A program made the position numbers and the translations under genes. DNA of 64,000 bases, taken from positions 62,001 through 126,000 of the forward strand of contig NZ_BBYA01000011.1 in NCBI RefSeq assembly GCF_001050275.1, read 5' to 3'. Positions 879 to 45,544 of this stretch are shown piece by piece (the stretch's first letter is position 1; each line of letters opens with the position of its first letter). Under the pieces are notes generated by a model. The model made no database searches. It was not told where the DNA came from and saw only the letters and a program-made list of their open reading frames with translations. This stretch comes from Leptolinea tardivitalis. Its GTDB lineage: Bacteria; Chloroflexota; Anaerolineae; Anaerolineales; Anaerolineaceae.

Positions 879-1931
879 TTATTTTAAATGAATTGACGGC
901 GTTTTGCTGGCGAAATCTGAAGCAATCAACTCTTCTGCCAGATGGAAGGGTGATACTGATCGCGTAAACAGGCGGTCAAGGGCCTGGTCATACTCCTGTG
1001 GATTCATGCGCGAAAGCCAGGTTTGAAAAAGCACTTCCCGAATTAGAGATTCCAGGTTACGGCGCAGCCGTTTGCTCTCGTTGGATTTCCACTGTCCGCT
1101 ATTTTGCAGGTAGGTATAGTGTTCTCGCAACGATTGAACCAATTGGGAGATGCCTTCGCCTGTGGTGGCAATCGTTTGAAGAATGGGAACCTGCCAGCCG
1201 GCAGGAGAACCAGTTGGAGGAGGTGCATCCTGATTCTCGTCTTCCATGAAATGATGGAAAGATCCACCTGTTGATGGATTGACCGAATTCATATCCAGCA
1301 CTTCTCGGAGGGCGCGTTCCGTCTGTTCAACACCGGGGCGGTCGGCTTTATTAATGCAGATGACATTGGCGATTTCCAGAATTCCTGCTTTGATGGCCTG
1401 AATATCATCGCCCATACCGGGGTTCTCAACCAGAAGAACTGTGTGAGCCAGACGAGTGATTTCCATTTCTGTCTGGCCAACCCCCACGGTTTCTACGAGA
1501 ATCACGTCAAATCCGGCTGCATCCATAGCTGTTACCATTTCGGCTGCTGCCATAGATAGCCCACCCAGTGTCCCGCGGGTGGCTACGGATCGGATAAATA
1601 TCCCCGGGTCACCGCTGAGATCACGCATCCGTACCCGGTCACCCAGCACGGCACCGCCGGTAAACGGGCTGGTGGGATCAACAGCCAGAATAGCCACACG
1701 TGATGGCGGATTGGTGCCATTCGGTTGGCGAAATGCCAGTGCCAGTTGATTGACCAGCGTGGATTTTCCAGAGCCGGTTGGACCGGTCACACCAATAATA
1801 TGAGCCTTACCAGCATGCTGGAAAAGAACATCCAACATGCTCCGGCTTTCCGAGGTGCCGTTCTCAATTTGGGATAACGTACGTGCCAGCGCCAGCCGGT
1901 CACCTTGAAGAAGGGCATCAACCTGATTCAT
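879..1931 (-). CDS. meaB: Methylmalonyl-CoA mutase-associated GTPase MeaB/ArgK
   Basis: P-loop GTPase, 350 aa, that protects and reloads the B12-dependent methylmalonyl-CoA mutase. Seen in the sequence: Walker A GVTGPTGSGKSTLVNQL near residue 50, AVDPTSPFTGGAVLGDRVRM, the DVILVETVGVGQTEMEI switch region, and the guanine-specificity motif CINKADRP. Length and motif order are typical of MeaB. It lies 17 bp downstream of the B12-binding mutase subunit, so chaperone and client are probably one transcript. The N-terminus is short, beginning MNQVDALLQGDRLALART as in the family. Confidence 0.93.
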   Translation of the reverse strand: MNQVDALLQGDRLALARTLSQIENGTSESRSMLDVLFQHAGKAHIIGVTGPTGSGKSTLVNQLALAFRQPNGTNPPSRVAILAVDPTSPFTGGAVLGDRVRMRDLSGDPGIFIRSVATRGTLGGLSMAAAEMVTAMDAAGFDVILVETVGVGQTEMEITRLAHTVLLVENPGMGDDIQAIKAGILEIANVICINKADRPGVEQTERALREVLDMNSVNPSTGGSFHHFMEDENQDAPPPTGSPAGWQVPILQTIATTGEGISQLVQSLREHYTYLQNSGQWKSNESKRLRRNLESLIREVLFQTWLSRMNPQEYDQALDRLFTRSVSPFHLAEELIASDFASKTPSIHLK

Positions 1932-1948
1932 GGCGCTTCGGCTGATCC

Positions 1949-2356
1949 TTACCCTTCTATGGCGCCCGTAAGAGCCAGGCGCACAGAAGAAATGATTTCT
2001 TCAGTTTTTGTACCGGGGCCAAATACACCGGCAACCCCCATCTTTTTTAATGCGATGGCATCTTCATCCGGAATAATGCCACCCACAAATACCGGTCTGT
2101 CACCCAGCCGGTTGAGTTTTAATAATTCCAAAATTCGGGGAACAAGAGTCATGTGAGCGCCGGAAAGAATCGATAATCCAATGGCGTCCACATCTTCTTG
2201 AAGGGCAGCCTCTACAATCATTTCCGGGGTTTGCCGGAGACCTGTGTAGATGACTTCCATTCCTGCATCACGCAAAGCACGGGCGACGATTTTCGCCCCG
2301 CGATCGTGACCATCCAGTCCGGGTTTTGCCACCAGCACACGAATTTTCTTTTCCAT
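1949..2356 (-). CDS. Methylmalonyl-CoA mutase small/C-terminal B12-binding subunit
   Basis: A 135-aa stand-alone cobalamin-binding domain. It has the DxHxxG signature as [10 protein letters not shown] near residue 15, with the His that coordinates cobalt, then LSILSGAH and VFVGGIIP, as in the C-terminal domain of methylmalonyl-CoA mutase. The catalytic TIM-barrel subunit is not in the window. I chose the ATG at 2356 over the one at 2374 because GGAG lies five bases upstream of it. Followed directly by meaB. Role: interconversion of succinyl-CoA and methylmalonyl-CoA, the propionate route. A related B12 mutase such as isobutyryl-CoA mutase cannot be excluded. Confidence 0.9.
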
Positions 2357-2528
2357 GCCAACTCCAGCATTCAAATTATACCCTGTTGGGTTGTTTCTGA
2401 CGGACGTTTATCGCTGAAATCAGAAGTTTAGTGTGATCTTAAACAACCTTCTGTATGCAGTTGATTCCATGTTTTTGTGGTGGTAAACTTTCTACACTGT
2501 TGAAATATATATCAAGGATATTATTTTT

Positions 2529-3629
2529 ATGCCAAACATTTTTCCCTTTACTGCGATCGTCGGACAGGAACGTATGCGCCGGGCGCTGGTTCTCAATGCT
2601 GTCGATCCTCGCATTGGCGGCGTACTTATCCGCGGTGAACGCGGTACGGCAAAATCTACGGCAGCACGCGCACTGGCTGCCCTGTTACCTTATGTGAAAG
2701 TTGTGGCAGATTGCCGCTTTGGCTGTGACCCGGATGCTCCGGCCAGCCTGTGCACCGAATGCCGTGAGCGGATTGCCCGCGGTGAATCTTTGCCTGTAAA
2801 AACCCGGCCAACACCCTTTGTCAACCTGCCGGTTTCTGCCACGGAAGATCGTGTGGTAGGGACATTGGATATCGAAAAAGCCATCCAGAAAGGCGAACGG
2901 GCATTTGAACCCGGTGTTCTGGCGGCAGCCAACCGCGGCATGTTATACATCGATGAAGTCAACCTGCTGGATGATCATGTGGTTGACGTGCTGCTTGACT
3001 CTGCGGCCATGGGTATGAATATTGTCGAACGCGAAGGTATTTCGTTTTCACACCCGGCCCGGTTTATCCTGGTGGGAACCATGAACCCGGAAGAAGGCGA
3101 CCTGCGTCCGCAACTGCTGGACCGCTTTGCCCTTTCGGTAGATATTCACGGTATCCGTGATTCGCGTGAGCGCGTGACGATCATGGAACGCAACCTGGAA
3201 TATGAAGCTTCCCCCGATAATTTCCGGAAGAAATGGGAACCGAAAGAAGAGGAAATTTCAAAACAGATTGAAGAAGCCCGCAAGCTCGTCGATCGGGTGG
3301 GTTACACCAAACATGACCTGATTTCCATTGCTTCTTTAACAGCATCTTTAAATGTTGACGGGCATCGCTCTGACCTGGTCATTTTGAAAGCTGCTCGCGC
3401 TCAGGCTGCCATTGAAGGACGTACGTCTGTTACTGATAGAGATATCGCCATGGCTGCTGAACTGGCTCTCCCTCACCGCCTGAAACGGGGTCCTTTTATG
3501 CAGTCTGAAATGACCATGGAAGACCTGCAGGAGCGTATAGAATCCCTGCAAGGTGGATCGAGCAAGGGTAAATCTGAACAGGAGCAGGAACCGGAAGATG
3601 ATGCTTCCGATGATGTAAAAAAAAAGTAA
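2529..3629 (+). CDS. Mg/Co chelatase AAA+ subunit (ChlI/BchI-like); short product of a frameshifted chlID gene
   Basis: AAA+ ATPase of 366 aa resembling ChlI/BchI. Walker A GERGTAKST is near residue 37, followed by a cysteine-bearing insert (CDPDAPASLCTEC), Walker B MLYIDEVNLLDD, and sensor regions GTMNPEEGDLRPQLLDRF. The C-terminus is an acidic linker ending EDDASDDVKKK. The zero-frame stop is at 3627-3629, directly after a run of nine A. The -1 frame continues without interruption into a ChlD-like von Willebrand A domain. The short product alone could serve as the small chelatase subunit, with the frameshifted product as the medium one. A large CobN/ChlH subunit is not in the window. The ATG is preceded by AAGGAT at a long spacing. 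Confidence 0.9.
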   Translation: MPNIFPFTAIVGQERMRRALVLNAVDPRIGGVLIRGERGTAKSTAARALAALLPYVKVVADCRFGCDPDAPASLCTECRERIARGESLPVKTRPTPFVNLPVSATEDRVVGTLDIEKAIQKGERAFEPGVLAAANRGMLYIDEVNLLDDHVVDVLLDSAAMGMNIVEREGISFSHPARFILVGTMNPEEGDLRPQLLDRFALSVDIHGIRDSRERVTIMERNLEYEASPDNFRKKWEPKEEEISKQIEEARKLVDRVGYTKHDLISIASLTASLNVDGHRSDLVILKAARAQAAIEGRTSVTDRDIAMAAELALPHRLKRGPFMQSEMTMEDLQERIESLQGGSSKGKSEQEQEPEDDASDDVKKK

Positions 3630-3666
3630 GTGAAGATGTTCAGGTCGAAGAACGACAGGACCTGAA
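3617..3666 (+). promoter_or_regulatory. Probable programmed -1 ribosomal frameshift signal
   Basis: Nine A at 3617-3625 followed by G give the slippery heptamer A_AAA_AAG in the zero frame at 3620-3626. The zero-frame stop TAA comes immediately after. Twelve bases beyond the heptamer a perfect 8-bp stem forms, TTCAGGTC (3639-3646) with GACCTGAA (3659-3666), around a 12-nt loop. Slipping back one base joins residue 366 to VSEDVQVEERQDL and 55 codons lead to the methionine at 3791. An AGGAGCAGG stretch lies roughly 30 nt upstream, too far to be a classical stimulatory Shine-Dalgarno. Transcriptional slippage at A9 is an alternative mechanism. Confidence 0.72.
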
Positions 3667-4612
3667 GCCTCCGGCTGAAGAAGGTAAGCCGGTTTTCAAA
3701 GATGCCACAGCCCACTGGTGGGATGGTGGTGAAAAAACCAAGATTGGCGAATCCTTCAATCCGCGCAAGCTGGATACCCCGCTTGACCAGATGATCCGCA
3801 AGCAGGGTGGACGGCGTTCACGTACCAAGACAGAACAGGCGCGCGGCCGATATGTTCAGGCGCGCCCCACACCGGGTAAGGCTTTTGATCTGGCGTTTGA
3901 TGCCACCATTCGGGCGGCAGCACCATACCAGCGCAACCGTTCAGAACAACGGCGGCGGGTGGCGTTTGCCGTCAAACCGGCAGATTACATGCGCAAAGTT
4001 CGGGTTCGCCGGGCGGCCAACCTGGTCCTATTTCTGGTGGATGCCTCCTGGTCAATGGCTGTGGCAGAACGTATGGCTGCCACCAAGGGCGCTATACTCT
4101 CGCTCTTGACCGATGCCTACCAGCGCCGCGACCGTGTGGGTCTGATCGTTTTCCAGAAAGACCGGGCCACCCTTGTGTTGCCGCCAACCAATTCCGTTCA
4201 ACTGGCTCAACGGGCGCTTTCTGAAATTCCGGTAGGCGGAAAAACACCCTTACCGGCTGGTTTACAGATGTCACTCGAGGTGCTGCACCGTGAATCAACA
4301 CTGCATCCTGAAGTGCAGCCATTATTGATTGTTCTGACGGACGGGGCCGGTAATGTTTCGATGGGGCATATGTCACCTCAGGACGAGTCCAACATGCTGG
4401 CCGATTTACTCGCGGAAGAAAAAATCCACAGTGTAGTGGTCAATATGGAGCATGCGGCCTTCGATCAGGGACTGGCACAGGTATTGGCCGACCACCTGCA
4501 GGCTCCCTGCTATACGATCACCGATCTGAAGGCAGAAAACCTTTATCAGACAGTACGCAATGAAATGTCAGCCATTGGTACGGTTTCAATGGGTGGTATC
4601 GGCGCTAAATAA
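3626..4612 (+). CDS. Chelatase D-like VWA domain, expressed as -1 frameshift extension of the ChlI-like gene
   Basis: About 328 codons in the -1 frame relative to the upstream AAA+ gene; the fusion would be about 694 aa. It starts with an acidic/proline linker, then a basic region with GGRRSRTKTEQARGRY, then a von Willebrand A domain with an intact metal-ion site: DASWS (DxSxS), GGKTPL with the Thr, and LTDGAGN with the Asp. This is the integrin-I-like domain of ChlD/BchD/CobT. A separate start at the ATG at 3791 is possible but has no clear Shine-Dalgarno and would drop the conserved linker segment FNPRKLDTPLDQMIRKQ. An ordinary sequencing indel is a lesser alternative, since the site matches a known frameshift architecture. 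Confidence 0.85.
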   Translation, partial: VSEDVQVEERQDLKPPAEEGKPVFKDATAHWWDGGEKTKIGESFNPRKLDTPLDQMIRKQGGRRSRTKTEQARGRYVQARPTPGKAFDLAFDATIRAAAPYQRNRSEQRRRVAFAVKPADYMRKVRVRRAANLVLFLVDASWSMAVAERMAATKGAILSLLTDAYQRRDRVGLIVFQKDRATLVLPPTNSVQLAQRALSEIPVGGKTPLPAGLQMSLEVLHRESTLHPEVQPLLIVLTDGAGNVSMGHMSPQDESNMLADLLAEEKIHSVVVNMEHAAFDQGLAQVLADHLQAPCYTITDLKAENLYQTVRNEMSAIGTVSMGGIGAK

Positions 4613-4631
4613 GAGTGTCTGTTGCATAGAT

Positions 4632-4671
4632 AAAACCGAGGTTGGAGAGAGATTTTCGACCCCGGTTTTTA
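4632..4671 (+). terminator. Rho-independent terminator after the chelatase gene
   Basis: AAAACCGAGGT (4632-4642) pairs with ACCCCGGTTTT (4659-4669) with one mismatch, and the stem runs into five T. It lies 20 bp after the VWA stop codon and also separates this gene from the convergent CBS gene. Confidence 0.75.
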
Positions 4672-4702
4672 TTTGAATCACCCGGAATACATGGGTTGAA
4701 AT

Positions 4703-5146
4703 TTATGCAGGATAAGTGCGGCCTTGAATATAATCTTCCAGCTGGTTGATGGTCAGTTGTTTGTTGGAGATTAATTCGCGTACAACATCACCGATCGAAA
4801 TCACCCCGATTAATTTTTCATTTTCCAACACCGGAAGATGCCGGATATGCCTGTCAGTCATCAATTGCATGCATTGTTCAATACTCTGGTCGGGTGTAAC
4901 CGTCGAGATTTCAGTGGTCATATAACGTTCAACTGTCGAATAAAGCAGGCATTGGCCTGTTTGGGCAATTGAGCGAACGAAATCCCGTTCAGAAACAACA
5001 CCAACGATTTTCCCCTCTTTTGTGACCATTAATGCGCCGACATCTTTTTTTGCCAGCAGATGGAGAGTGTCAATCATTGTTGTTTCCGGTGAAACTGACC
5101 AGACATCGCCGCCTTTGTTCCGTAAAAGGTCTCGGACTGTAACCAT
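4703..5146 (-). CDS. Two-CBS-domain protein
   Basis: A 147-aa protein made of a tandem CBS (Bateman) pair. The first repeat runs from TVRDLLRNKGGDVWSVSPETTM to GVVSERDFVRSI; the second from MTTEISTVTPDQSIEQCMQLMTDRHIRHLPVLENEKLIGVISIGDVVREL. Such stand-alone pairs bind adenine nucleotides and act as energy or ionic-strength sensors; the target here is unknown. The start at 5146 is chosen because AAGGAG lies six bases upstream, whereas the upstream in-frame ATG at 5206 has no such site. It ends with a YIQGRTYPA tail. The neighbouring ClC channel gene on the same strand also carries CBS domains. Confidence 0.9.
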   Translation of the reverse strand: MVTVRDLLRNKGGDVWSVSPETTMIDTLHLLAKKDVGALMVTKEGKIVGVVSERDFVRSIAQTGQCLLYSTVERYMTTEISTVTPDQSIEQCMQLMTDRHIRHLPVLENEKLIGVISIGDVVRELISNKQLTINQLEDYIQGRTYPA

Positions 5147-5318
5147 GGTTTGCTCCTTGTTATCGAGAATGATTGCTCCGATCTGTATAGAAAAACAGAC
5201 GATCAAACCAACAAAAGTGCAACTGCATGATAATTATGGATATACTACAGGAAGCAGAGGAAAAATGCAATTCGGAAATTTCGCCAACAGGTAATAAAAA
5301 GAATTCGTATCGGGTCGA

Positions 5319-7298
5319 TTAATATTCTGATTCTACAAAAACAGTCTTACACATTCCTAAAATCAGGTCATAGAGATTGCTTTTGGTTACGATAACCAGA
5401 ATGTCCCCGGTAAATATGGTTGTTTCACCACGGGGAATGAAAACCTGATTCCCCCGGCGGATGCTGGCAATGATGCATTCAGGTGGAAAAGGAATTTCTT
5501 TTAGTTTCTTGTTCGCAATGGACGCTTTTTCTTGAACTGTGACATCAAATACCTGTACCTGTGGTGGAGTCAGTCCGTCAAGCCGGACTGCTTCCTGCCT
5601 GTGGCGCTGCGATGCCCTGCGTGAGAGTCCAATGGTATAGGCATGAATGATATCGGCTCTTCGAAGTACTCCCAGAAGTTCTCCGGGATTATGCTGATTC
5701 ACTACCGGCAGCATTCCAATATCCCTTTTACTCATTCGGCGAAGTGCCAGATTTACCGTCTCTTCAGGATAAGCGACTTCTACTTTTTTGCTGCAGGCAT
5801 CTTTTACCAGCCTGGCATCTGCTTTTTCTATATCCTGAATGGAGAGTATACCTTCAAGAAAACCCTGATCGTTCAACACCGGAAGACTGTTTTCATGCGA
5901 CTTGAGAAGAATCTCTTCCGCCTCATCCAGGCTGGTTGTATCAGAGAGAGTCTCGGGCTCAGAGCGCATCACCTCACTGACTGTCAGTGTACTTAGTATT
6001 TCAATGTCCCGGCCGCGATCCAGCCGGATTCCCTGTTCAGCCAACCCCATTTCATACACTGAATCTGCCTGCAGTTTTCTGGATACGGCAAAACTGACTG
6101 CCACTGAAAACATAAGCGGCAAAATGATCCGGTAATCATTGGTCATTTCGAACAACAGGAGAATACAGGTTAATGGTGCTCGGACGGTACCGGAAAGAAC
6201 GGCTGCCATGCCCACCAGAGCAAATGCAGCCGGATGGAGCCCAATATTCGGAAACCACAGGTTCATCAAGGCTCCAAATCCGCCACCCAGCGTGGCACCG
6301 ATGAACAATGCCGGAGCAAAAACACCCCCGACAAATCCGCCGCCCAGGCTGAATGGTGTGAGAATCACTTTGACTATCATCAGGATGGCGAGTACTCTTA
6401 GGTCGAATGAGGTGTTATTTAAAACCTGGCCGATCGTTTCATACCCGGTTCCCAGCACCTGGGGAATGACCAATCCAACGGCACCGATAATCAGGCCGGA
6501 TATTACAGGTTTTACCAGATTGGCAATATTCCATTGGGAGAAAAGACGACGGAAACTATCAATTAATCGAATATACAGTGCTGAAACTGGAGCGGCCAGT
6601 AAACCGAGGGCTAAGTAAAGGGGAAGCTCATAGACTGAATTGAAGGCATAGGCTGGTATGGGAAAAGCAGGGGACGTTCCGGAGACTGCCTGTGTGAAAA
6701 CAGCCGAGGAAACAGCGGTGGCCAGAATCAACGTGAGTGCGCTGGTGCTGATTTCTCCCAGAATAATCTCTACGGCAAAGAAGACACCGGCAATGGGTGC
6801 ATTAAAAGCGGCTGCTATGGCAGCGGCTACACCGGCTGCCACCAGGGCTGCCGTCCGTTCCTCAGACAGGTGAAGTAATTGCCCGAATATGGAACCAAAG
6901 CTGGCCCCAATCTGGACGGATGGATCTTCAGGTCCAAGGGATGCTCCGGAGCCAATGGAAATTATGGCCTGTATTGTTTTGATAGGCGTTTTTTGATAGT
7001 GGATTCTGCCGCCCGTTAAGGCAACAGCCTGCATGACTCCGGCTGTGCCGTGCATAGATTTGCCCGAATCAAAATATCGGGTCAACAATCCAACGATTAA
7101 TCCACCGGCAGCCGGAATGAGGACAACCATCCAGCCTGAAACCAATCCAAAGGATTGACGATGGGCATACTCAATTAACCATTTGAACAGCCATATTGCG
7201 GCGCCGGTAAGAACACCGACAAGAACAGCCAACAGCGAAAGGGTGAGGGTTTGAGTAGAAAATGGTTTTGATAATCGGGTAAATAAAGTATCTTTCAT
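5319..7298 (-). CDS. ClC-family chloride channel/antiporter with CBS pair and TrkA-C domain
   Basis: A 659-aa inner-membrane protein. The first about 430 residues are the ClC fold with the selectivity-filter segments IGSGASLGPEDPSVQ and GGGFVGGVFAPALFIGA. A cytoplasmic CBS pair follows (VSEVMRSEPETLS; CSKKVEVAYPEETVNL), then a C-terminal TrkA-C-like domain (PFPPECIIASIRRGNQVFIPRGETTIFTGDILVIVT). The GREGP motif is GPEDP here, so transport mode cannot be read from it. I chose the ATG at 7298; a TTG at 7310 is also in frame. The TrkA-C domain suggests ligand gating, which is an inference. Confidence 0.92.
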   Translation of the reverse strand: MKDTLFTRLSKPFSTQTLTLSLLAVLVGVLTGAAIWLFKWLIEYAHRQSFGLVSGWMVVLIPAAGGLIVGLLTRYFDSGKSMHGTAGVMQAVALTGGRIHYQKTPIKTIQAIISIGSGASLGPEDPSVQIGASFGSIFGQLLHLSEERTAALVAAGVAAAIAAAFNAPIAGVFFAVEIILGEISTSALTLILATAVSSAVFTQAVSGTSPAFPIPAYAFNSVYELPLYLALGLLAAPVSALYIRLIDSFRRLFSQWNIANLVKPVISGLIIGAVGLVIPQVLGTGYETIGQVLNNTSFDLRVLAILMIVKVILTPFSLGGGFVGGVFAPALFIGATLGGGFGALMNLWFPNIGLHPAAFALVGMAAVLSGTVRAPLTCILLLFEMTNDYRIILPLMFSVAVSFAVSRKLQADSVYEMGLAEQGIRLDRGRDIEILSTLTVSEVMRSEPETLSDTTSLDEAEEILLKSHENSLPVLNDQGFLEGILSIQDIEKADARLVKDACSKKVEVAYPEETVNLALRRMSKRDIGMLPVVNQHNPGELLGVLRRADIIHAYTIGLSRRASQRHRQEAVRLDGLTPPQVQVFDVTVQEKASIANKKLKEIPFPPECIIASIRRGNQVFIPRGETTIFTGDILVIVTKSNLYDLILGMCKTVFVESEY

Positions 7299-7355
7299 CG
7301 ATATAGCCAACCGATTTTAGCACTTAAATAATTGTCTCGATTCATAACAGAACAC

Positions 7356-7506
7356 TGCCTTCGACAGGCTCAGGCAGCGGAAGGCGGGAAAGGCTCAGGC
7401 AGTGGAAGAAGGGAAAACTCAACCCGGTGGCTGAGCTCGTCGAAGCCCAAGGCACTTGCCTTCGACAGGCTCAGGCAGCGGAAGAAGGGAAAGGCTCAGG
7501 CAGTGG
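7356..7506. repeat. Direct-repeat pair with inverted partner in an intergenic spacer
   Basis: A unit of about 49 bp beginning TGCCTTCGACAGGCTCAGGC occurs at 7356 and again 101 bp later at 7457, differing only slightly. Each copy also contains an internal shorter echo GGCTCAGGCAGTGG. Between the copies CTGAGCTCGTCGAAG (7430-7444) is a near-inverse of CTTCGACAGGCTCAG. This fills the roughly 200 bp between the ClC gene and the methyltransferase gene, and it looks like a dispersed intergenic repeat. No gene is visible in it. Confidence 0.8.
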
Positions 7507-7510
7507 AGGG

Positions 7511-8344
7511 TTAACCCACCCACACAATGTCAGGAATATCGGCAAACCGCTTTCGCATCACATCCAGGGACTGCGGATTATTATCCACAAGCACAAATTG
7601 ACGGCCAAGCTCCACACAGGCAGCTCCTGTAGTTCCGCTGCCGGCAAAGAAATCAAGGACCGTATCTCCTGGATTGGACGAAGCCGTAACGATTCGACGC
7701 AGCACACCAAGCGGCTTTTGAGTGGGATATCCGGTCTTTTCTTTCCCATTTGTGGCCACGATCGTATGCCACCAGGTGTCAGTGGGCAGCTTTCCCCTGG
7801 CTGCCTTGACTTCACCTACCAGCCCGGGTGCCATATACGGAATGCGATCGACAGCATCTTGATTGAAGGTGTATTGTTCCGGGTCTTTGACGTACAGCAG
7901 GATATTGTCATGTTTGGCCGGCCAGCGGTTTTTTGGACGGCCGCCGTAGTCATACGCCCAGATGATTTCATTCAAAAAGCACTCCCGCCCAAAAATCATA
8001 TCCAACAAAATTTTGCAGTAGTGCACTTCGCGATAGTCGATATGGAAATACAGGCTGCCGGTGGTTTTTAAAAGACGATACGCTTCTGAAAGACGCGGCT
8101 CAAGGAATGACAGGTAATCGTCAAAAATATCGGCATACCCACGCGAACCAATTTTTATCGTCTCGTATCGCCGTCCGCCAAACCCGGTGCGGTCACCATT
8201 TGTACTGCGTTCCGTGCGGATCTGCGTGCGGGTCTGTGTCCGGCCGGTATTAAAGGGCGGATCGATGTATATAAGGTCGATGGATTCGGTTGGCAGGGAT
8301 TGAAGAACAGGCAGGTTATCCCCGAAGTAGATGGTGTTGGGCAT
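7511..8344 (-). CDS. Site-specific DNA methyltransferase (adenine/N4-cytosine, DPPF type), apparently orphan
   Basis: A 277-aa DNA methylase of the DNA_methylase N4/N6 family. The catalytic motif DPPF is at residues 28-31. The SAM-binding FAGSGTT is near the C-terminus (233-239), so the order is beta-like, motif IV before motif I. TGYPTQKPLGVLRRIV is the conserved segment before motif I. Residues about 34-50 carry a repetitive Arg/Thr stretch (GRTQTRTQIRTERS). No restriction endonuclease or specificity subunit is adjacent, so it is an orphan methylase or a remnant of a restriction-modification system. Target sequence and base cannot be inferred. Confidence 0.9.
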   Translation of the reverse strand: MPNTIYFGDNLPVLQSLPTESIDLIYIDPPFNTGRTQTRTQIRTERSTNGDRTGFGGRRYETIKIGSRGYADIFDDYLSFLEPRLSEAYRLLKTTGSLYFHIDYREVHYCKILLDMIFGRECFLNEIIWAYDYGGRPKNRWPAKHDNILLYVKDPEQYTFNQDAVDRIPYMAPGLVGEVKAARGKLPTDTWWHTIVATNGKEKTGYPTQKPLGVLRRIVTASSNPGDTVLDFFAGSGTTGAACVELGRQFVLVDNNPQSLDVMRKRFADIPDIVWVG

Positions 8345-8388
8345 GGAGGAATTTTAACAGCAAAGAGGCAGGAAATAAGGGATCGGTT

Positions 8389-9402
8389 TTATCCCCCGGT
8401 GGATGATTTTTCGACAAGAATGGATTGCCATTCCTCCACCGGATTGGAATACCAGAATCCCGACGAATAACTGGCAATACCGATATCATAACCGTACGTG
8501 AGTTTGACCTGAATCTGGTCAAACTCATCAATTCCCTTCATGTTGTGCAAAGCCTGCCCGGCAATTCTTCTGGCAATCTCCCAGCGGCTGTCTTCCGGCA
8601 ACTGACCGACTGTCCACACATCTATGACCAGCGACCGGTAGGCCGGATCTTTTTCCGGTGTGATGGTTTGATCACGGACGGTAACGGTGAAAAAACGGGG
8701 ATCAGACGCCAGGGTTTGTTGAATTTCCCTGATTCGGGTTGAAGAAGGATTCGGAATGTAGGATGGGTTATCAGCCTGAAGAAAGAACAGGAAAATGGCA
8801 GTTAGCAGCATCCAGACACCGGCAAACGCCCAGTGGACGCTCTTCGTGCGGGGTAGGGGGACTTCCGCCACTGCGTTAACTTTAATCACATACGTCTGGT
8901 AAAGCAGGTCGTGGAAACCCTGCTGGGCACCCCGGTTGAAGATCATCGTGTACAGGATGGCGCCGCCCAGTCCGAACAGGATCCATGCAGATAAGAAGGC
9001 TAAAACTCTGTTTTCAAACGCAGGCAAAGCCCAACCACCCAACAGGAAAGGGAGTACCAGCAGGGTGGTGCGTGCCAGCGACCTTAACGGAGTAATTGGC
9101 CGTCCATTGGCATCGCTGACGGTTGTTTTCATCAGTCGTTTTCCTACAGTCTGACCGTTGCCAACGGACGAGTTCAACAGTCCAAAGTATGGAAGAATGA
9201 TCAGCAGACCCAAAAGACGGCCATAGGGGCCGATGGTAAAGAGCCAGTCTGCGAACAACCACCCCAGAGCCTGACCTGCCAAACCCAGAAGAATGGCGTC
9301 AACCATCCAGGCGGCAAAGCGCTGCCAGAGACTGGCAATCGGCGTATCAGTTGGCAATGGTGTCGGCTGGTTTTCAGCCTGTTCTTGATGAGAATCCTGC
9401 AT
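8389..9402 (-). CDS. RDD-family membrane protein
   Basis: A 337-aa integral membrane protein. After a hydrophilic N-terminus, ASLWQRFAAWMVDAILLGLAG carries the Arg and Asp typical of the RDD domain, and VGNGQTVGKRLMKTTVSDANGRPIT is the conserved RDD loop. Several hydrophobic helices follow up to about residue 165, then one more near residue 200. A soluble C-terminal domain of about 120 residues I do not recognise completes it. The function of RDD proteins is mostly unknown; some act as ion antiporters. Same strand as the methyltransferase gene, 44 bp upstream of it. Confidence 0.85.
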   Translation of the reverse strand: MQDSHQEQAENQPTPLPTDTPIASLWQRFAAWMVDAILLGLAGQALGWLFADWLFTIGPYGRLLGLLIILPYFGLLNSSVGNGQTVGKRLMKTTVSDANGRPITPLRSLARTTLLVLPFLLGGWALPAFENRVLAFLSAWILFGLGGAILYTMIFNRGAQQGFHDLLYQTYVIKVNAVAEVPLPRTKSVHWAFAGVWMLLTAIFLFFLQADNPSYIPNPSSTRIREIQQTLASDPRFFTVTVRDQTITPEKDPAYRSLVIDVWTVGQLPEDSRWEIARRIAGQALHNMKGIDEFDQIQVKLTYGYDIGIASYSSGFWYSNPVEEWQSILVEKSSTGG

Positions 9403-9484
9403 GATGTATAAAAAAATTCCTGGAAAGATAATTTTAGTGACCGATACAGAACATTAAAGCATCATTGTAGCAGAGATGCCCGGA

Positions 9485-10372
9485 CTATTTTTTCTTGATG
9501 AAAGTCCCTTCCTGATATTCCCGGAAGGCCGTACGCAGTTCATCCTGTGTATTCATAACGATAGGGCCATACCAGGCAACCGGTTCACGCAGCGGTTTCC
9601 CGGAAATGAGCAGGAACTGCGCACCTTCAACGCCGGCGGTAGCCTGAACAGTATCGCCGTCATTGAATACCACCAGACTGTGATTGCCGAGATACGGATC
9701 ACGGTTCAGGAAGTCGAAATAATTCTCACCTGATGATGAGTAGTCAAAGCAATCTTGTTCTTCGCAGAAACGTACACGGCCCCCAATGACATACGCAAAA
9801 CACGTGTGACCGCGCGGCACGGGGTTGGTGAAACTTTCACCGGCGGGGATGGTCACATCGAGATATTCCGGTTCGATGACGATATCTTTCACCGATTCGC
9901 TGATCACCTTTATGACCACGCCGTTATCCAATGTCACCACCGGGATTGCGGCAGCTTTGATATCACGGTATCGGGGATCCATCATCTTCTGGCTGCTGGG
10001 CAGGTTGGCCCACAGTTGAAACCCGTACATACGCCCATCGGCGGATGCTTTGGGCATTTCCTGATGAATGATCCCGCTCCCGGCTGTCATCCATTGCACA
10101 TCGCCGGGGCCGATCACCCCATGATTGCCCAGGCTGTCGCCGTGTTCCACTGTACCGACCGTCAGGTAGGTGATGGTTTCGATGCCGCGGTGGGGGTGCC
10201 AGGGGAATCCCTTGATGTAATTTTCCGCCTGGTCACCGCGGAAGTCATCGAGCAGCAGGAAGGGGTCAAACAGTTCGGTGGCGCCGAAGCCGAATGCCCG
10301 GCGAAGATGTACCCCGGCGCCTTCGAGAGTCGGCTGGCTTTTGGTCACACGGAAGATTTTGCGGTTGTTCAT
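9485..10372 (-). CDS. Pirin family protein
   Basis: A 295-aa bicupin of the pirin/YhhW family. The N-terminal cupin has FDPFLLLDDFRGD, FPWHPHRGIETITYLTVGTVEHGDSLGNHGVIGPGDVQWMTAGSG with the metal-binding His/Glu set, and HQEMPKA. The C-terminal cupin includes HTCFAYVIGGRVRF and LLISGKPLREPVAWYGPIVMNT. Bacterial pirins are iron proteins with quercetinase or regulatory activity; which applies here is open. The start at 10372 follows AAAAGGGG; the reading frame extends upstream into the divergent T-box leader but that part is not gene-like. Divergent from trpB. Confidence 0.93.
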   Translation of the reverse strand: MNNRKIFRVTKSQPTLEGAGVHLRRAFGFGATELFDPFLLLDDFRGDQAENYIKGFPWHPHRGIETITYLTVGTVEHGDSLGNHGVIGPGDVQWMTAGSGIIHQEMPKASADGRMYGFQLWANLPSSQKMMDPRYRDIKAAAIPVVTLDNGVVIKVISESVKDIVIEPEYLDVTIPAGESFTNPVPRGHTCFAYVIGGRVRFCEEQDCFDYSSSGENYFDFLNRDPYLGNHSLVVFNDGDTVQATAGVEGAQFLLISGKPLREPVAWYGPIVMNTQDELRTAFREYQEGTFIKKK

Positions 10373-10443
10373 CGCGTGCCCCTTTTGTAAATAATTTTCC
10401 TTGATCATTGTAGCGGAATTTATTAACAAAAATCCAGATTCTC

Positions 10444-10471
10444 TTGACAAATCCATTTTTCCCGCTACAAT
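10444..10471 (+). promoter_or_regulatory. Sigma70-like promoter of the trpB T-box transcript
   Basis: TTGACA at 10444-10449 and TACAAT at 10466-10471 are separated by 16 bp. Transcription would start near 10478, just before the T-box stem I, and the promoter points away from the pirin gene. Confidence 0.75.
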
Positions 10472-10477
10472 AATCAC

Positions 10478-10824
10478 AAATACGTCAAAAGACTTTGACG
10501 AGGACGAGTAAGCGCCGTCGAGGCGGTACAGAGAGCATGGAGAAGTGGTGAGAGCCTGCCCGTACAATGACGCCGAATGGACCTCCGAGTCGCAGGGAGA
10601 ACGACTTTACGTCAAGTACCTCGTGCCGGAATTGCCACCGTTATCAGGGTAAAAGGTATCGCAGAATTTCTGCCGTACTTGAATGAGTGAGGCTGGCTTT
10701 TATTTTCCCCCGTGCGCCGTCACCGGGGGATTTTTGTTAAAGTCTACAACAGCAGCCTAACCAGGGTGGCACCGCGGATGCAAACGCATTCGTCCCTAAC
10801 AAGGGATGAATGCGTTTTTTTTGT
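10478..10824 (+). promoter_or_regulatory. T-box leader, probable tRNA-Trp sensor, upstream of trpB
   Basis: The T-box consensus AGGGTGGCACCGCGG is at 10763-10777. A strong terminator follows: AAACGCATTCGTCCCT (10782-10797) pairs with AGGGATGAATGCGTTT (10802-10817), then a U-run. The base of stem I can form from ACTTTGACG (10490-10498) and CGTCAAGT (10610-10617). In the 3' side of stem I the context GAA-TGG-ACC places a TGG specifier at 10578-10580, matching the tryptophan gene downstream. A separate hairpin near 10708-10735 (CCCCCG...CGGGGG) fits stem III. Uncharged tRNA-Trp would allow antitermination and trpB transcription. The specifier assignment is by eye; the T-box itself is clear. Confidence 0.9.
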
Positions 10825-10905
10825 TTTCAGGAGGTGCCCCATCACATTGTTTTGTTTGTTGTCCTAACTAAACCATCTTCCACCCAATATTTCAGGAGGC
10901 TTACC

Positions 10906-12279
10906 ATGTCAGACCAAATTCGTTTCGATCTTTCCCAGAATGATATTCCGCGTTTTTATTACAACATTAATGCAGATAATCCGGTGGCGCCGAACCCGGT
11001 GCTAAACCCTGCAACACTGGAACCGGTGACACCGGATTTTCTTTCCGTGCTTTTCCCCATGGATTTGATCATGCAGGAGATCAGCACAGAACGGTATATT
11101 GAAATCCCGCAGGAAGTGCTGGATATCTATAAACTCTGGAGGCCAACCCCCCTCATGCGTGCCGCGCGGCTTGAAAAAGCCCTGGGAACACCGGCCCATA
11201 TTTACTACAAGTACGAGGGGACGTCGCCCTCCGGCAGCCATAAATCCAACACGGCCGTGCCGCAGGCTTTCTTCAACAAGATCGCCGGAACCAAAGCCCT
11301 GACCACTGAAACCGGCGCCGGGCAGTGGGGGTCAGCCGTTTCGATGGCGGGCAAATTCTTCGACCTGCCGGTGGAAGTCTACATGGTCAAGGTGTCTTAC
11401 AACCAGAAACCCTATCGCCGCTTCCTTATGGAAACCTATGGCGGTGAGGTATATGCCAGTCCGAGTGACCGCACCGAGGCAGGGCGTGCCATGCTGGCCA
11501 AAGACCCCAATTGCAACGGGTCTCTTGGATTGGCCATATCAGAAGCGGTGGAAGTGGCCGCCAAATCGAATGGCACTAAAAAATACAGCCTGGGTTCGGT
11601 TTTGCATCATGTGTGTATGCACCAATCCATCATCGGTGAAGAAGCCCTCAAACAGATGGACCTGGCCGGTGAGTATCCTGATGTGGTGATTGGCTGCGTG
11701 GGCGGCGGCTCCAATTTCTCCGGCATCGCCTACCCATTCCTGCGCGAAAACCTGAAGAACGGTCAGCGGGCCAGATTATTGGCCGTGGAACCGACTGCTA
11801 CTCCTTCGCTCACCAAGGGTATTTTCGCTTTTGACTATGGTGATACGGCAAAAATGGCACCGGTCGTCAAGATGCATACCCTCGGCCATGATTTCATGCC
11901 TCCGGCCATTCATGCCGGCGGATTGCGTTACCACGGTATGGCGCCTGTGCTTTCGTCGCTGGTGGACGCCGGGTATATTGAGGCAGCAGCCGTTGATCAG
12001 AAATCCGTTTTCGCGGCGGCTACGGCGTTTGCCCAGTCTGAAGGCATTCTGCCGGCCCCTGAATCTGCGCATGCTATCTGCGCGGCTATCAAAGAAGCTC
12101 TCGATGCCAAGGAAAAAGGCGAAAAACGCACCATTCTATTCAACCTGTCTGGTCATGGACACTTTGACCTTACAGCGTACAACGCCTACAAACAGGGCGA
12201 ATTGGGCGATTCTACTTACCCAGATGAACTGATTGCCGATATCCCGAATCACCTGCCGAAAGTTCCGATGGTCGCTTGA
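10906..12279 (+). CDS. trpB: Tryptophan synthase beta chain, TrpB2 type
   Basis: PLP enzyme of 457 aa that condenses indole with serine to tryptophan. The PLP lysine lies in SPSGSHKSNTAVPQA near residue 114; ETGAGQWGSAVS and the phosphate-binding GCVGGGSNFSGI are present, and LFNLSGHGHFDLTAY closes the fold. The extended N-terminus and length over 440 aa are typical of TrpB2 rather than TrpB1. The ATG at 10906 has CAGGAGG eight bases upstream. No trpA or other trp gene adjoins it, so it stands alone as a T-box-controlled unit, which fits a role in indole salvage or a dedicated response to low tryptophan. Confidence 0.95.
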   Translation: MSDQIRFDLSQNDIPRFYYNINADNPVAPNPVLNPATLEPVTPDFLSVLFPMDLIMQEISTERYIEIPQEVLDIYKLWRPTPLMRAARLEKALGTPAHIYYKYEGTSPSGSHKSNTAVPQAFFNKIAGTKALTTETGAGQWGSAVSMAGKFFDLPVEVYMVKVSYNQKPYRRFLMETYGGEVYASPSDRTEAGRAMLAKDPNCNGSLGLAISEAVEVAAKSNGTKKYSLGSVLHHVCMHQSIIGEEALKQMDLAGEYPDVVIGCVGGGSNFSGIAYPFLRENLKNGQRARLLAVEPTATPSLTKGIFAFDYGDTAKMAPVVKMHTLGHDFMPPAIHAGGLRYHGMAPVLSSLVDAGYIEAAAVDQKSVFAAATAFAQSEGILPAPESAHAICAAIKEALDAKEKGEKRTILFNLSGHGHFDLTAYNAYKQGELGDSTYPDELIADIPNHLPKVPMVA

Positions 12280-12294
12280 GGTAGTTTCTGTAAA

Positions 12295-12328
12295 AGAAGG
12301 TGGTCAGATTTTTATTTGACCACCTTCT
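12295..12328. terminator. Bidirectional hairpin terminator between trpB and hepT
   Basis: AGAAGGTGGTCA (12295-12306) and TGACCACCTTCT (12317-12328) form a perfect 12-bp stem with a 10-nt loop between two convergent genes. The minus-strand reading is followed by a TTTTA run. Confidence 0.8.
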
Positions 12329-12331
12329 CTG

Positions 12332-12679
12332 TTATTCTGATCCATAATCCTTTAGTATTTCAGGTAATTTTTCTATTAATAATGGGATACGTTTTTTTAT
12401 AGTTTCCCAGATGATGGAATGTTGAATCCCAAAATAGTGATGAATCAACAGGTCTCTCATTTTTGACATGGCCGACCAGTCAATTTCAGGGTAGATATCC
12501 GTAATGTCTTTTGGAATGTTCTTAGCTGCTTCACCAATAATCTCAAATCCCTGTATAACGGCAAAGACAGTTTTTTCATCCGCGATGAAATCATCATATG
12601 TCATATCCGAAACGAAATTTTGGATTGACCTGGCTGTTTGTAAAATATCAACGAGATATTCCTTGAAGTCTCTAGGCAT
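12332..12679 (-). CDS. hepT: HepT-like HEPN-domain toxin (DUF86)
   Basis: A 115-aa HEPN protein. It has the RX4HXY active-site motif as RDLLIHHY, with R75, H80 and Y82. In characterised HepT/MntA systems the toxin is an RNase and the partner nucleotidyltransferase neutralises it by adding AMP to the Tyr of this motif. The start codon overlaps the stop of mntA by one base (TGATG), so translation is coupled. All key residues are intact, so the pair should be functional. Confidence 0.88.
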   Translation of the reverse strand: MPRDFKEYLVDILQTARSIQNFVSDMTYDDFIADEKTVFAVIQGFEIIGEAAKNIPKDITDIYPEIDWSAMSKMRDLLIHHYFGIQHSIIWETIKKRIPLLIEKLPEILKDYGSE

Positions 12680-12978
12680 CAGGTTATTTTGACCATTTCT
12701 TCATAAATGTGCCTGGCAAATTGAGGCCGTAAATTCATATCTGGGACAAGATCAATCTTAATCTTGAGGTTTTCTTCAAGAAAAAGGTTTAATGCCGCCA
12801 GATCAAATAGATCTGGCGTTTTTGTGTATGTTACGAGAATATCCAGGTCGCTTTCGGGTTTCTCTTCCCCTCTTGCATAGGAACCAAAAACAGCAATGTC
12901 TGAAATAGAAAAATTTTCACAGAGAAGTGGTTTTAAAGCTTCCAGTATTTTCACATAATCAGTCAGATTCTTTTTCAT
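12679..12978 (-). CDS. mntA: MntA-like minimal nucleotidyltransferase antitoxin
   Basis: A 99-aa minimal nucleotidyltransferase. The catalytic GSX10DXD motif is complete: GSYARGEEKPESDLDI with G32, S33, D44 and D46. It is translated before and coupled to the HEPN toxin gene. From family knowledge it AMPylates HepT to block its RNase activity. The start ATG lies at 12978, five bases downstream of the M28 peptidase gene end on the same strand. Confidence 0.88.
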   Translation of the reverse strand: MKKNLTDYVKILEALKPLLCENFSISDIAVFGSYARGEEKPESDLDILVTYTKTPDLFDLAALNLFLEENLKIKIDLVPDMNLRPQFARHIYEEMVKIT

Positions 12979-12982
12979 TTCA

Positions 12983-14173
12983 TTATTCTACAGGATTTGA
13001 TTTGTCTTTTTCAAGAATCCAGATAAGTTGGGTGATTACCTCAGCCATGTGCTTCATTTGATCCGGGTCAATCACCGATAATGTATCGTTTGGGGTATGG
13101 TAGGTTGCCCAGGAGAGGGGTGACCCCGTGTTTTCCTGATGGGCTGTAGAAAAACCAGCCCGGGCAAAGGGGACAAAATCACCCCAACGGCGGGGTACAG
13201 CATGGAAGACTGCCAGCGGGTCTGCCCGCTTGATGGATTCATTTAATTTTGGATCTGTTTTAATCGGGCGGAGGGTACCGCATTGGGTGGTGATACGCAT
13301 TCCGCTTCCGGCGCCAATCATATCTACACTGATGACAGCTGCATGCATTTGATTTTCCACCATGAAGCTGGCAAATTGACGTGCACCGTGCAGCCCGGTT
13401 TCTTCTGCCCCGGTAAAGAGGAAACCGATCTGTAAATTCTTCGGCGTGTCACCGGCCAACGCCAGAGCTGATGCCGCCAACAGAGCCGTCCCAGAACCGT
13501 TGTCGTTTGCCCCGGGTGAAAATCGCCCTCGTGAGGAGGCCGCTTCCCAGATATCTTGAATAAGTAGCAGACCGGCCATACCCCAGGCCAAACTTTGCCC
13601 GAGCGTGAGGAATAATCCGGTGATATCAATACCCATGAATTGAAATAATCCGGGAATGATCAGGATATTGGCCACTCGCATCATGGTGTAGATCGATTTG
13701 TCGCGCCATTTCTTCCAAAGTGCTGGACCGTCTGGTACCGCCCGCGCAGAGTCAACATGAGCGCAGAAAATTACATCGAGGTTTTGATAAGACGTATTTT
13801 TCGGTGTTACCAGAAGATTGGCCGATCCGTCTTTATATGGCAACAGCTTTTCCTGTAGGAATAACATACACTCGGGTAACAGCAAAATTAATAATGGAAG
13901 GAGAAGAGTAACCCAGCCGCTTGTGGATAAAGTCAGGCCAACCAGGGCAAAACCGGCGGCGGCTACACTGTAATAAGGAAAGAATGCCGGTTCGGGTTGG
14001 TAACGAACGGGGAACTGCCTTGTATCCAGGGCGGATTGGCGGAATTGCTCTTCAAGCCAGTCAAGCGTGTGTTTTTCAGCCGCCGATCCGGCCGGGCGGG
14101 GACCAATCTCTTCCACCAGATGGGTGAGGAGTTCCATGGTTTTATGCTGAAGTAATTCCGGTTCGAGGCTCAT
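12983..14173 (-). CDS. M28-family zinc aminopeptidase with membrane segment
   Basis: A 396-aa peptidase of the M28 (aminopeptidase Y/S) family. After an N-terminal segment EEIGPRPAGSAAEKHTLDWL, two hydrophobic stretches at about residues 70-110 form a membrane hairpin inserted ahead of the catalytic core. Zinc and catalytic residues are visible in CAHVDSAR, GANDNGSGTA, AEETGLHGAR and VDMIGAGSG, with a C-terminal His in WATYHTPND. A further hydrophobic stretch occurs near residues 170-205 inside the peptidase domain. Overlaps the upstream gene by four bases (ATGA). Substrate unknown; probably membrane-associated peptide turnover. Confidence 0.88.
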   Translation of the reverse strand: MSLEPELLQHKTMELLTHLVEEIGPRPAGSAAEKHTLDWLEEQFRQSALDTRQFPVRYQPEPAFFPYYSVAAAGFALVGLTLSTSGWVTLLLPLLILLLPECMLFLQEKLLPYKDGSANLLVTPKNTSYQNLDVIFCAHVDSARAVPDGPALWKKWRDKSIYTMMRVANILIIPGLFQFMGIDITGLFLTLGQSLAWGMAGLLLIQDIWEAASSRGRFSPGANDNGSGTALLAASALALAGDTPKNLQIGFLFTGAEETGLHGARQFASFMVENQMHAAVISVDMIGAGSGMRITTQCGTLRPIKTDPKLNESIKRADPLAVFHAVPRRWGDFVPFARAGFSTAHQENTGSPLSWATYHTPNDTLSVIDPDQMKHMAEVITQLIWILEKDKSNPVE

Positions 14174-44232: not shown

Positions 44233-45092
44233 CCGGTTTGCCTTTCTAACGACCCAAGTACAGCTCCGCCAATAATCAAGATCATGGCAAGACCACTGAT
44301 CAAGGTCAGGGTTTTATTGGCGAAAATCAATAAATTGAGTGTGGATAACAACGGGGTGAGATACGCAAGCGATCCGATCGTGCGCGGATCACCCCGTTTC
44401 AAGGCGGCATCCCAGAAATAAAACGCCGCCCCCAGGGGACCGATCCCGGCGAGACAGATCAACGTCCATTCTGTTATTGTCAGTGATTGGAAATCAGATA
44501 CCCTCCCGCCGGTCAACAAAAAGATGACCAGCGATAAGAGACCGGAAATCAGGCAAAATACACTCACCGATTCCGTGCCAAAGGGGGGAAGACGTTTGGT
44601 GAGCAGAGAATACACCGCCCAGGTGACTGCCGCCCCGAAGGCCAGCAGATACCCCGGCAGGTAAATCAGGTCAATGGTCAGGCGGCCTTCTGTGACAATC
44701 AGCGCGGCGCCGGTCAGGCCGAGCAGGGCGGCAAGGATATGCCTGAACGTAAGATGATAACCGGGGAGGATAACCGGTGAAAGCACAACGATCAGCAGCG
44801 GCCACAGGTAATTAATCAGGTTGGCTTCAACCGCTGGCGCCAGTGAAAAAGCCTTGAAATAGAGGGAGTGGTACCCGAAGATACCTGCCGCACCGACCAG
44901 AATGGTGGTCAACGGGATGCGCCAGGCTTTAACCCGCAGAAGGCTGATGAAGCCGCTGATCAGAAAGGCGATGGTCAGGATGAGAAATGGGGAAATTCGC
45001 GAAAGCCGGGTGCTGATTAGCGCCAGCGTGCTCCAGATGAGAATGGCGGCAAGCGCAAGAGCAATACCGGAAGATTTTGTGTTGGTGGCCAT
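44229..45092 (-). CDS. EamA-family (DMT superfamily) transporter
   Basis: A 287-aa protein with about ten hydrophobic helices in two EamA repeats. The first runs ALALAAILIWSTLALISTRLSRISPFLI..., with NYLWPLLIVVLSP; the second starts YLLAFGAAVTWAVYSLLTKR and includes LAYLTPLLSTLNLLIFANKTLTLIS. Such proteins export amino acids or metabolites; NYLWPLLIV resembles aromatic amino-acid exporters of the YddG type. Substrate is inferred only loosely. Confidence 0.88.
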   Translation of the reverse strand: MATNTKSSGIALALAAILIWSTLALISTRLSRISPFLILTIAFLISGFISLLRVKAWRIPLTTILVGAAGIFGYHSLYFKAFSLAPAVEANLINYLWPLLIVVLSPVILPGYHLTFRHILAALLGLTGAALIVTEGRLTIDLIYLPGYLLAFGAAVTWAVYSLLTKRLPPFGTESVSVFCLISGLLSLVIFLLTGGRVSDFQSLTITEWTLICLAGIGPLGAAFYFWDAALKRGDPRTIGSLAYLTPLLSTLNLLIFANKTLTLISGLAMILIIGGAVLGSLERQTG

Positions 45093-45286
45093 AAAGAATC
45101 CTGTTTGGTGATACGTGCTGTGGACTGCCCGATATCAACATGATAATCTAAATCCCCGCTCTTTTTTGAGATGAGGCTGAGGGAATACTCGTTCAAAAAC
45201 GAATATTTTATGCCAAAAAACACATCTGATGTCGTAAAATTGGTAGTCATCAGAATGCGCATAGATTCTATTGTGCCGGAAAACCC

Positions 45287-45449
45287 CTGTGTGGGCGCGG
45301 AGGGGCTCGCGAAGTGCCCGTGGTAAACGTCCGCCTTGATGAGACTGAAAAATCTCTGTGTGGGCGCGGAGGGGCTCGCGAAGTGCCCGTGGTAAACAAC
45401 CCGCCTTGATGAGACTGAAAAATCTCTGTGTGGGCGCGGAGGGGCTCGA
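45287..45449. repeat. Tandem 70-bp repeat carrying the tRNA-Val 3' end
   Basis: The segment CTGTGTGGGCGCGGAGGGGC, which is the end of the tRNA-Val gene plus its flank, occurs at 45287, 45356 and 45426 with a period of 69-70 bp. Only the last is within the full tRNA. Between copies the spacer GAAGTGCCCGTGGTAAAC... CCGCCTTGATGAGACTGAAAAATCT is nearly identical. In tRNA orientation the gene is thus followed by two copies of its own last 17 bases. The remaining sequence back to the EamA gene at 45092 shows nothing recognisable. Confidence 0.9.
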
Positions 45450-45504
45450 ACCCCCGACCTTACGGATGTGAACCGTACGCTCTGACCAGCTGAGCTACGC
45501 GCCC
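45431..45504 (-). tRNA. tRNA-Val (CAC)
   Basis: Reverse complement folds as a cloverleaf: acceptor GGGCGCG/CGCGCCC, D arm GCTC...GAGC with AGCTGGTCA, anticodon stem ACGG/CCGT with loop TTCACAT (anticodon CAC), and T arm with GGTTCGAGCCCC. Discriminator A; CCA is not encoded. It reads GUG codons. Confidence 0.95.
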
Positions 45505-45515
45505 GGAGATGTGAA

Positions 45516-45544
45516 ATTATAAAGCATCCCAAAGGCTTTGACAA
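45516..45544 (-). promoter_or_regulatory. Promoter of tRNA-Val
   Basis: On the minus strand TTGTCA (45539-45544) and TATAAT (45516-45521) are separated by exactly 17 bp, and the tRNA 5' end is 12 bp beyond the -10. Confidence 0.8.

Follow-up and report, generated by a model that had tools for sequence, protein, structure and literature searches.

Small palindromic repeats inserted in genes include the REP/BIME elements, the Rickettsia palindromic elements and the mitochondrial GC clusters. To our knowledge, arrays that repeat the 3′ end, or tail, of a tRNA gene are well known only from tyrT of Escherichia coli. When E. coli K-12 tyrT was analyzed with the script used for the arrays described here, three extra exact 19-nt tails were recovered at 178 bp, with a palindromic sequence before each. 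The tyrT repeats yield the rtT RNA, according to passages in two papers that cite Bosl and Kersten 1991 (PMC4986893, PMC2965389), and a passage in one of these likens rtT to the BIME palindromic elements (PMC2965389).

The array studied here lies in a 64,000-nt stretch of a Leptolinea tardivitalis contig (the window) and belongs with the tail repeats of the tyrT/rtT type, taken as a kind and not as a homologous family. As in the E. coli tyrT/tyrV repeats, the arrays of the order Anaerolineales are built of units set in tandem downstream of a tRNA gene, and each unit reproduces the tRNA 3′ end exactly (19 nt in tyrT), preceded by palindromic sequence. The tyrT unit nevertheless has a different sequence and a length of 178 bp, compared with 59-110 bp in Anaerolineales, and it is found at one tRNA locus in E. 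coli, compared with 15 tRNA kinds in Anaerolineales. The T-loop insert of the Anaerolineales arrays, made of a hairpin followed by ATGATA, is absent from the E. coli unit. The covariance model of RtT RNA (Rfam RF00391) had no match in the window or in any of 201 genomes from the order, while the E. coli control was positive. Thus, as judged from sequence, the Anaerolineales arrays resemble tyrT in kind, and common descent is not supported. The units matched no family in Rfam, and a known RNA family was accordingly rejected as an identity for them. In the open-licence literature we found no description of tRNA-tail arrays other than tyrT/rtT, and the widespread hairpin-bearing tail array appears to be undescribed so far.

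In the window, the 3′ part of tRNA-Val(CAC), comprising the variable loop, T-arm and acceptor 3′ strand, is repeated head to tail together with the trailer. The array is headed by the intact gene (45430..45504, minus strand; ARAGORN; Rfam RF00005, 68.1 bits), and the last 19 bases of the gene, CGAGCCCCTCCGCGCCCAC, occur exactly three times in the window, all on the minus strand: once in the gene (45430-45448) and twice downstream of it (45360-45378 and 45291-45309). The tail-to-tail spacing is 70 and 69 bp. With up to three mismatches allowed, 0.01 occurrences would be expected by chance in the window, and the tandem doubling of the tRNA-Val 3′ end claimed in a preliminary description of this DNA is therefore real. 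Unit 1, delimited by tail matching and by orthologous units in a sibling genome of the genus (G002), spans 45360..45429 on the minus strand and contains, in order from the gene, a trailer (45408-45429), a copy of the variable loop and T-stem 5′ strand, AAGGCGGG (45400-45407), a T-loop insert, TTGTTTACCACGGGCACTTCG (45379-45399; assigned by comparison with the G002 insert), and the tail copy (45360-45378). Unit 2 (45291..45359, minus strand) has the same arrangement, with its trailer at 45338-45359, the variable-loop/T-stem copy at 45330-45337, the insert CGTTTACCACGGGCACTTCG at 45310-45329 and the tail at 45291-45309. TRF, which assigns no strand, reports the entire array at 45280..45448 with a period of 70, 2.4 copies and a score of 301. 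Aligned over 51 positions outside the tail, the two complete units show only 3 differences; the distance between tails is at most 51 bp and no cargo lies in between.

That such a structure arose by chance or through assembly error is very hard to credit. The genomes are draft assemblies, but against an artefact stand the window expectation of only 0.01 matches, the orthologous array of a relative whose genome was assembled independently, the identical structure in named MAG records and one viral contig, and the recovery of the known E. coli tyrT array by the script. An ordinary dispersed repeat was likewise ruled out: the Val(CAC) unit is found nowhere else in the 3.69-Mb genome, where the sole further hit is weak (30 bases, E 0.1) and lies at another tRNA. 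Copies scattered away from tRNAs, which the preliminary description named as grounds for rejecting its reading, are thus lacking. In a CRISPR-like array the spacers should be unique, and in the Val array they are near-identical; no cas genes were evident by eye among the ORFs inspected. A 175-aa ORF on the minus strand (window 45017-45544) spans tRNA-Val(CAC) and the array, a position comparable to that of tpr in E. coli. A coding role for this ORF was rejected, and it is taken as a chance frame, because units of 70 and 69 bp share no common frame.

The Val(CAC) array is one instance of a pattern at many tRNA genes of the Anaerolineales. We scanned the flanks of the genome's tRNA genes, taken singly, for copies of each tail, and a census applied one rule to three genomes, counting tail copies within 450 nt of a tRNA. 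By this census, tail arrays are present in the same genome at 3 of 46 tRNAs, namely Val(CAC), Lys(TTT) and Arg(GCG). The tRNA-Lys(TTT) gene is followed by four extra exact tails spaced 91-94 bp apart and tRNA-Arg(GCG) by six extra tails with one to three mismatches, spaced 84-86 bp apart; each unit carries an intrinsic-terminator-like hairpin and T-run. A genome from another family of the order (G118) shows tail copies at 7 of 44 tRNAs, compared with none of 46 in a control genome of the same phylum from outside the class (G238). Across relatives in the order and named records, which are Anaerolineales/Anaerolineae MAGs, arrays are found at 15 tRNA kinds, namely Lys(TTT, CTT), Glu(CTC, TTC), Ser(GGA, GCT, CGA) and Arg(GCG, TCG), as well as Val(CAC), Pro(GGG, TGG), Cys, Met and His. 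As a separate observation, in one genome the first 41 bases of tRNA-Lys(TTT) are found again, without mismatch, at a distance from the full gene (G010:C34:418154-418194).

Across arrays, units measure 59-110 bp, and a typical unit duplicates the part of the tRNA between the variable loop and the 3′ end and adds a trailer or terminator. Downstream of the tRNA come, in order, the trailer (often with a terminator), a copy of the variable loop and T-stem 5′ strand, in most cases an insert, and then the tail. The tail, made up of the T-loop and the 3′ strands of the T-stem and acceptor, is the same as, or near to, that of the local tRNA. The usual insert, of ~19 nt, is a mini-hairpin of the form CCCC-loop-GGGG followed by ATGATA, positioned between T-stem and T-loop. 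In most copies the insert disrupts the normal T-arm, while the tail stays near the local tRNA. The clearest unit, at tRNA-Arg(TCG) of genome G006, reads GGTTCAGGG[TCCCCGGAAGGGGATGATA]TTCGAATCCCTGCGGGGGCGC, where the tRNA itself reads GGTTCAGGGTTCGAATCCCTGCGGGGGCGC. At unrelated tRNAs, the insert CCCC-loop-GGGGATGATA is followed by TTCGA and then by the local tRNA's own tail. The loops vary (GAAA, GGAA, GCA, TACG, TGCG, ATTGA and ATCGA), and identical loop types recur at different tRNAs and in two families, f1 (the family of the window's genome) and f12. A hairpin fold was obtained for nearly all of 28 representative inserts, and its outer pairs vary yet keep pairing (T-A, A-T, TCTCC/GGAGA, TACCAC/GTGGTA), as judged by eye and with no null. 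The T-stem 5′ strand carries a base change in many units, which rules out a conserved T-stem as an RNA helix and a T-arm fold common to the units. A paired T-arm is retained in some arrays (Lys in this genome and in G025, His in G118); breakage of the T-arm is therefore not universal.

At the Val tRNA of G002 there are four diverged units, two with an intact hairpin (TTTGCCACAGAGTGGTAC and TTTACCACAAAGTGGTAC) and two shortened, and the hairpin insert TTTGCCACAGAGTGGTAC-TTCG has the same T-loop position as the insert in the window. Since intact and shortened inserts occur at the same tRNA and position in G002, TTGTTTACCACGGGCACTTCG is read as a probable shortened form of the G002-type hairpin insert. 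In the Arg array of this genome, GCCCCCAATGAGGGGACGGTGT precedes CCGAAATC and is a diverged form of the common insert. The Lys array of this genome has a longer hairpin situated further upstream, and some of its copies retain a T-arm able to pair. Several T-loop or acceptor inserts of different arrays, at L240 (G214:C9), at L231 (G095:C10) and in the Val units of this genome, share another recurrent word, (A/T)(G/A)CTTCGCGAG.

The pattern GGGNTGATATTCGA gave 61 matches in the 201 genomes of the order, whereas its reversed form gave 3. Of the 61 matches, 39, in 15 genomes, are tRNA tails, one of them an orphan tail in G022, and the remainder are single matches without a hairpin. Of 400 genomes of the phylum, 12 contain the stricter GGGATGATATTCRANYCC; these are all among the 36 sampled from the order and belong to families f1 and f12, and the 364 genomes sampled outside the order have no match. 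Taken alone, with no T-loop part, the hairpin CCCCN{3,6}GGGGATGATA was above its control across the order. As a free interspersed element, however, the hairpin was rejected: the copies outside tRNAs have no shared flank, and many resemble chance or other palindromes. Like repeats of the REP/BIME type, the insert is a short GC-rich hairpin of ~20 nt with a constant flank, and similar hairpins occur in tandem outside tRNA tails, where 19-bp repeats of CCCC-loop-GGGGATGATAT were seen at L290 (G006:C12:259400-262400) and L266 (G203:C104). Unlike REP/BIME-type repeats, the ATGATA-TTCGA form is tied to tRNA tails and is linked to no transposase. On the minus strand of L221 (motif at 1667; G022:C5:578317-578334), a hairpin unit bearing the tail of tRNA-Met, GGTCGCAGG[TCCCATCGAGGGATGATA]TTCGAATCCTGCCGGGCCCAC, stands as an orphan: the surrounding 60 kb (G022:C5:560000-619999) contains no tRNA gene.

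The number of copies differs among close relatives, and similar arrays occur at many tRNAs of the order. Among four genomes of the genus, two units are present at the Val locus of this genome (G000), four at that of G002 and none in G001 and G003. In G001 and G003, a terminator-like hairpin and T-run lies directly 3′ of the tRNA with no array, a state compatible with loss or gain by any route. The neighboring genes of the Val locus agree among G000, G002 and G003; the G001 contig ends inside the tRNA. Over 16 arrays, the mean pairwise difference between units was 0.059 in the tails compared with 0.173 in the rest of the unit (~3-fold), a contrast that is in part one of ascertainment, because copies were recognized by tail similarity. 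The contrast is strong in old arrays (0/532 in the tails compared with 0.277 at Glu of G023) and missing or reversed in young ones. Microhomology of 5-7 nt was present at the duplication junctions of four arrays (p 0.02-0.15), which is suggestive without reaching significance.

The preliminary description had also proposed nested attachment sites left by integration and excision. In the form considered here, each tail would be the attR remnant of a lost element and the hairpin-ATGATA the conserved arm of a recombinase site that targets the T-loop. The arrays do resemble attR remnants in that the tRNA 3′ end reappears downstream, oriented as in the gene, and prophages and islands occupy such tRNAs. 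At tRNA-Lys of G002, a tyrosine recombinase gene is present, with tail copies at 3.7 and 4.5 kb; in viral contig L294, an integrase gene lies beside a tail and a hairpin unit follows directly; at tRNA-Lys of G032, a 12.2-kb island lies between tail copies; and at Lys of G003 the first terminator is unlike the last, as expected after integration. In contrast to attR remnants, however, the arrays are tandem 59-110 bp units without cargo or integrase, in which the copy is mostly interrupted at the T-loop. As the preliminary description had noted, no integrase gene is near the Val array: the genome's six Phage_integrase genes are all on other contigs, and none lies on contig C11, C8 or C9. In a collection of viral contigs, the hairpin motif gave only unrelated matches and one in the host flank of a prophage, which rules out a constant viral attachment arm and leaves the motif part of no viral element found. 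In addition, the part of the unit upstream of the hairpin matches the variable loop and T-stem of the local tRNA, which an element arm would not. We therefore consider nested attachment sites unlikely.

In the two prophages examined (at tRNA-Lys of G002, L147, and in L294), the element is integrated at the tRNA and the array is left on the far side. L147 (G002:C88:40000-49000) carries a 299-aa tyrosine recombinase and two tail copies whose T-stem sequences differ, which suggests that two elements lie one behind the other, with an old tail array downstream of them. At the end of L294, the integrase gene is followed by an attR-like core, TTGGTCGCAGGTTCGATCCCTGCCGGGTCCAC, beyond which a single hairpin unit lies in what is read as the host flank. 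The array is thus downstream host sequence and not part of the phage. The 12.2-kb stretch of G032 (L149, G032:C1:1821000-1838000, positions 1672-14000) lies between tRNA-Lys and a tail copy that begins in the anticodon loop, contains sugar-transport and hydantoinase-like genes, and is bordered on either side by array-like units; no integrase was recognizable among the ORFs read there.

A functional RNA was also considered, in which tRNA read-through transcripts would be cut into repeat-derived RNAs, as for rtT, with the hairpin and T-loop as the recognized structure. Such a role would fit the conservation of the hairpin despite differing outer pairs, the GNRA- or UNCG-like loops of several units, the tie between tails and local tRNA, the terminators retained in many units and the RNA that the E. 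coli tyrT repeats give, as cited in passages of PMC4986893 and PMC2965389. Against it, arrays come and go inside one genus, no single fold is common to all units, the units match nothing in Rfam, none of the 201 genomes of the order has RtT, and the outer-pair differences were judged by eye without a null. By analogy with rtT, an RNA role may be entertained, but we regard it as quite improbable.

We favor, as the probable explanation, local tandem expansion from the tRNA gene itself. The suggestion in the preliminary description of a tandem expansion that copies the tRNA terminus agrees with the near-identical tandem units, the copy numbers of 0, 0, 2 and 4 in the genus and the similar arrays elsewhere. 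Under local expansion, arrays would arise and change in number through replication slippage or unequal recombination between tails, selection would keep the tRNA intact, and recombination with the tRNA would keep the tails alike. Most copies may be neutral or merely tolerated, because an interrupted T-arm would not be treated as a tRNA. The hairpin-ATGATA insert would be a small palindromic module that spread between tail copies. Arrays in two families, at tRNAs unrelated to one another, have the conserved GGGGATGATATTCGA in common; local duplication alone is insufficient to explain this, and the finding points to specific recombination or an RNA role. More tentatively, the insert might be a lineage-specific element of ~19 nt (mini-hairpin plus ATGATA) targeted to the T-loop of duplicated tails and spread over at least 12 tRNA kinds in Anaerolineales. 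It would then be an as yet unrecognized mobile palindrome or a site of specific recombination, or else belong to a functional RNA linked to the tRNA.

These findings caution that a tail copy behind a tRNA does not by itself prove an integrated element. Arrays that recur at many tRNAs within one bacterial order, turn over quickly and carry a conserved T-loop insert constitute a natural case series, which could test how such arrays originate, how tails identical to the tRNA are kept up and whether any RNA product is made.
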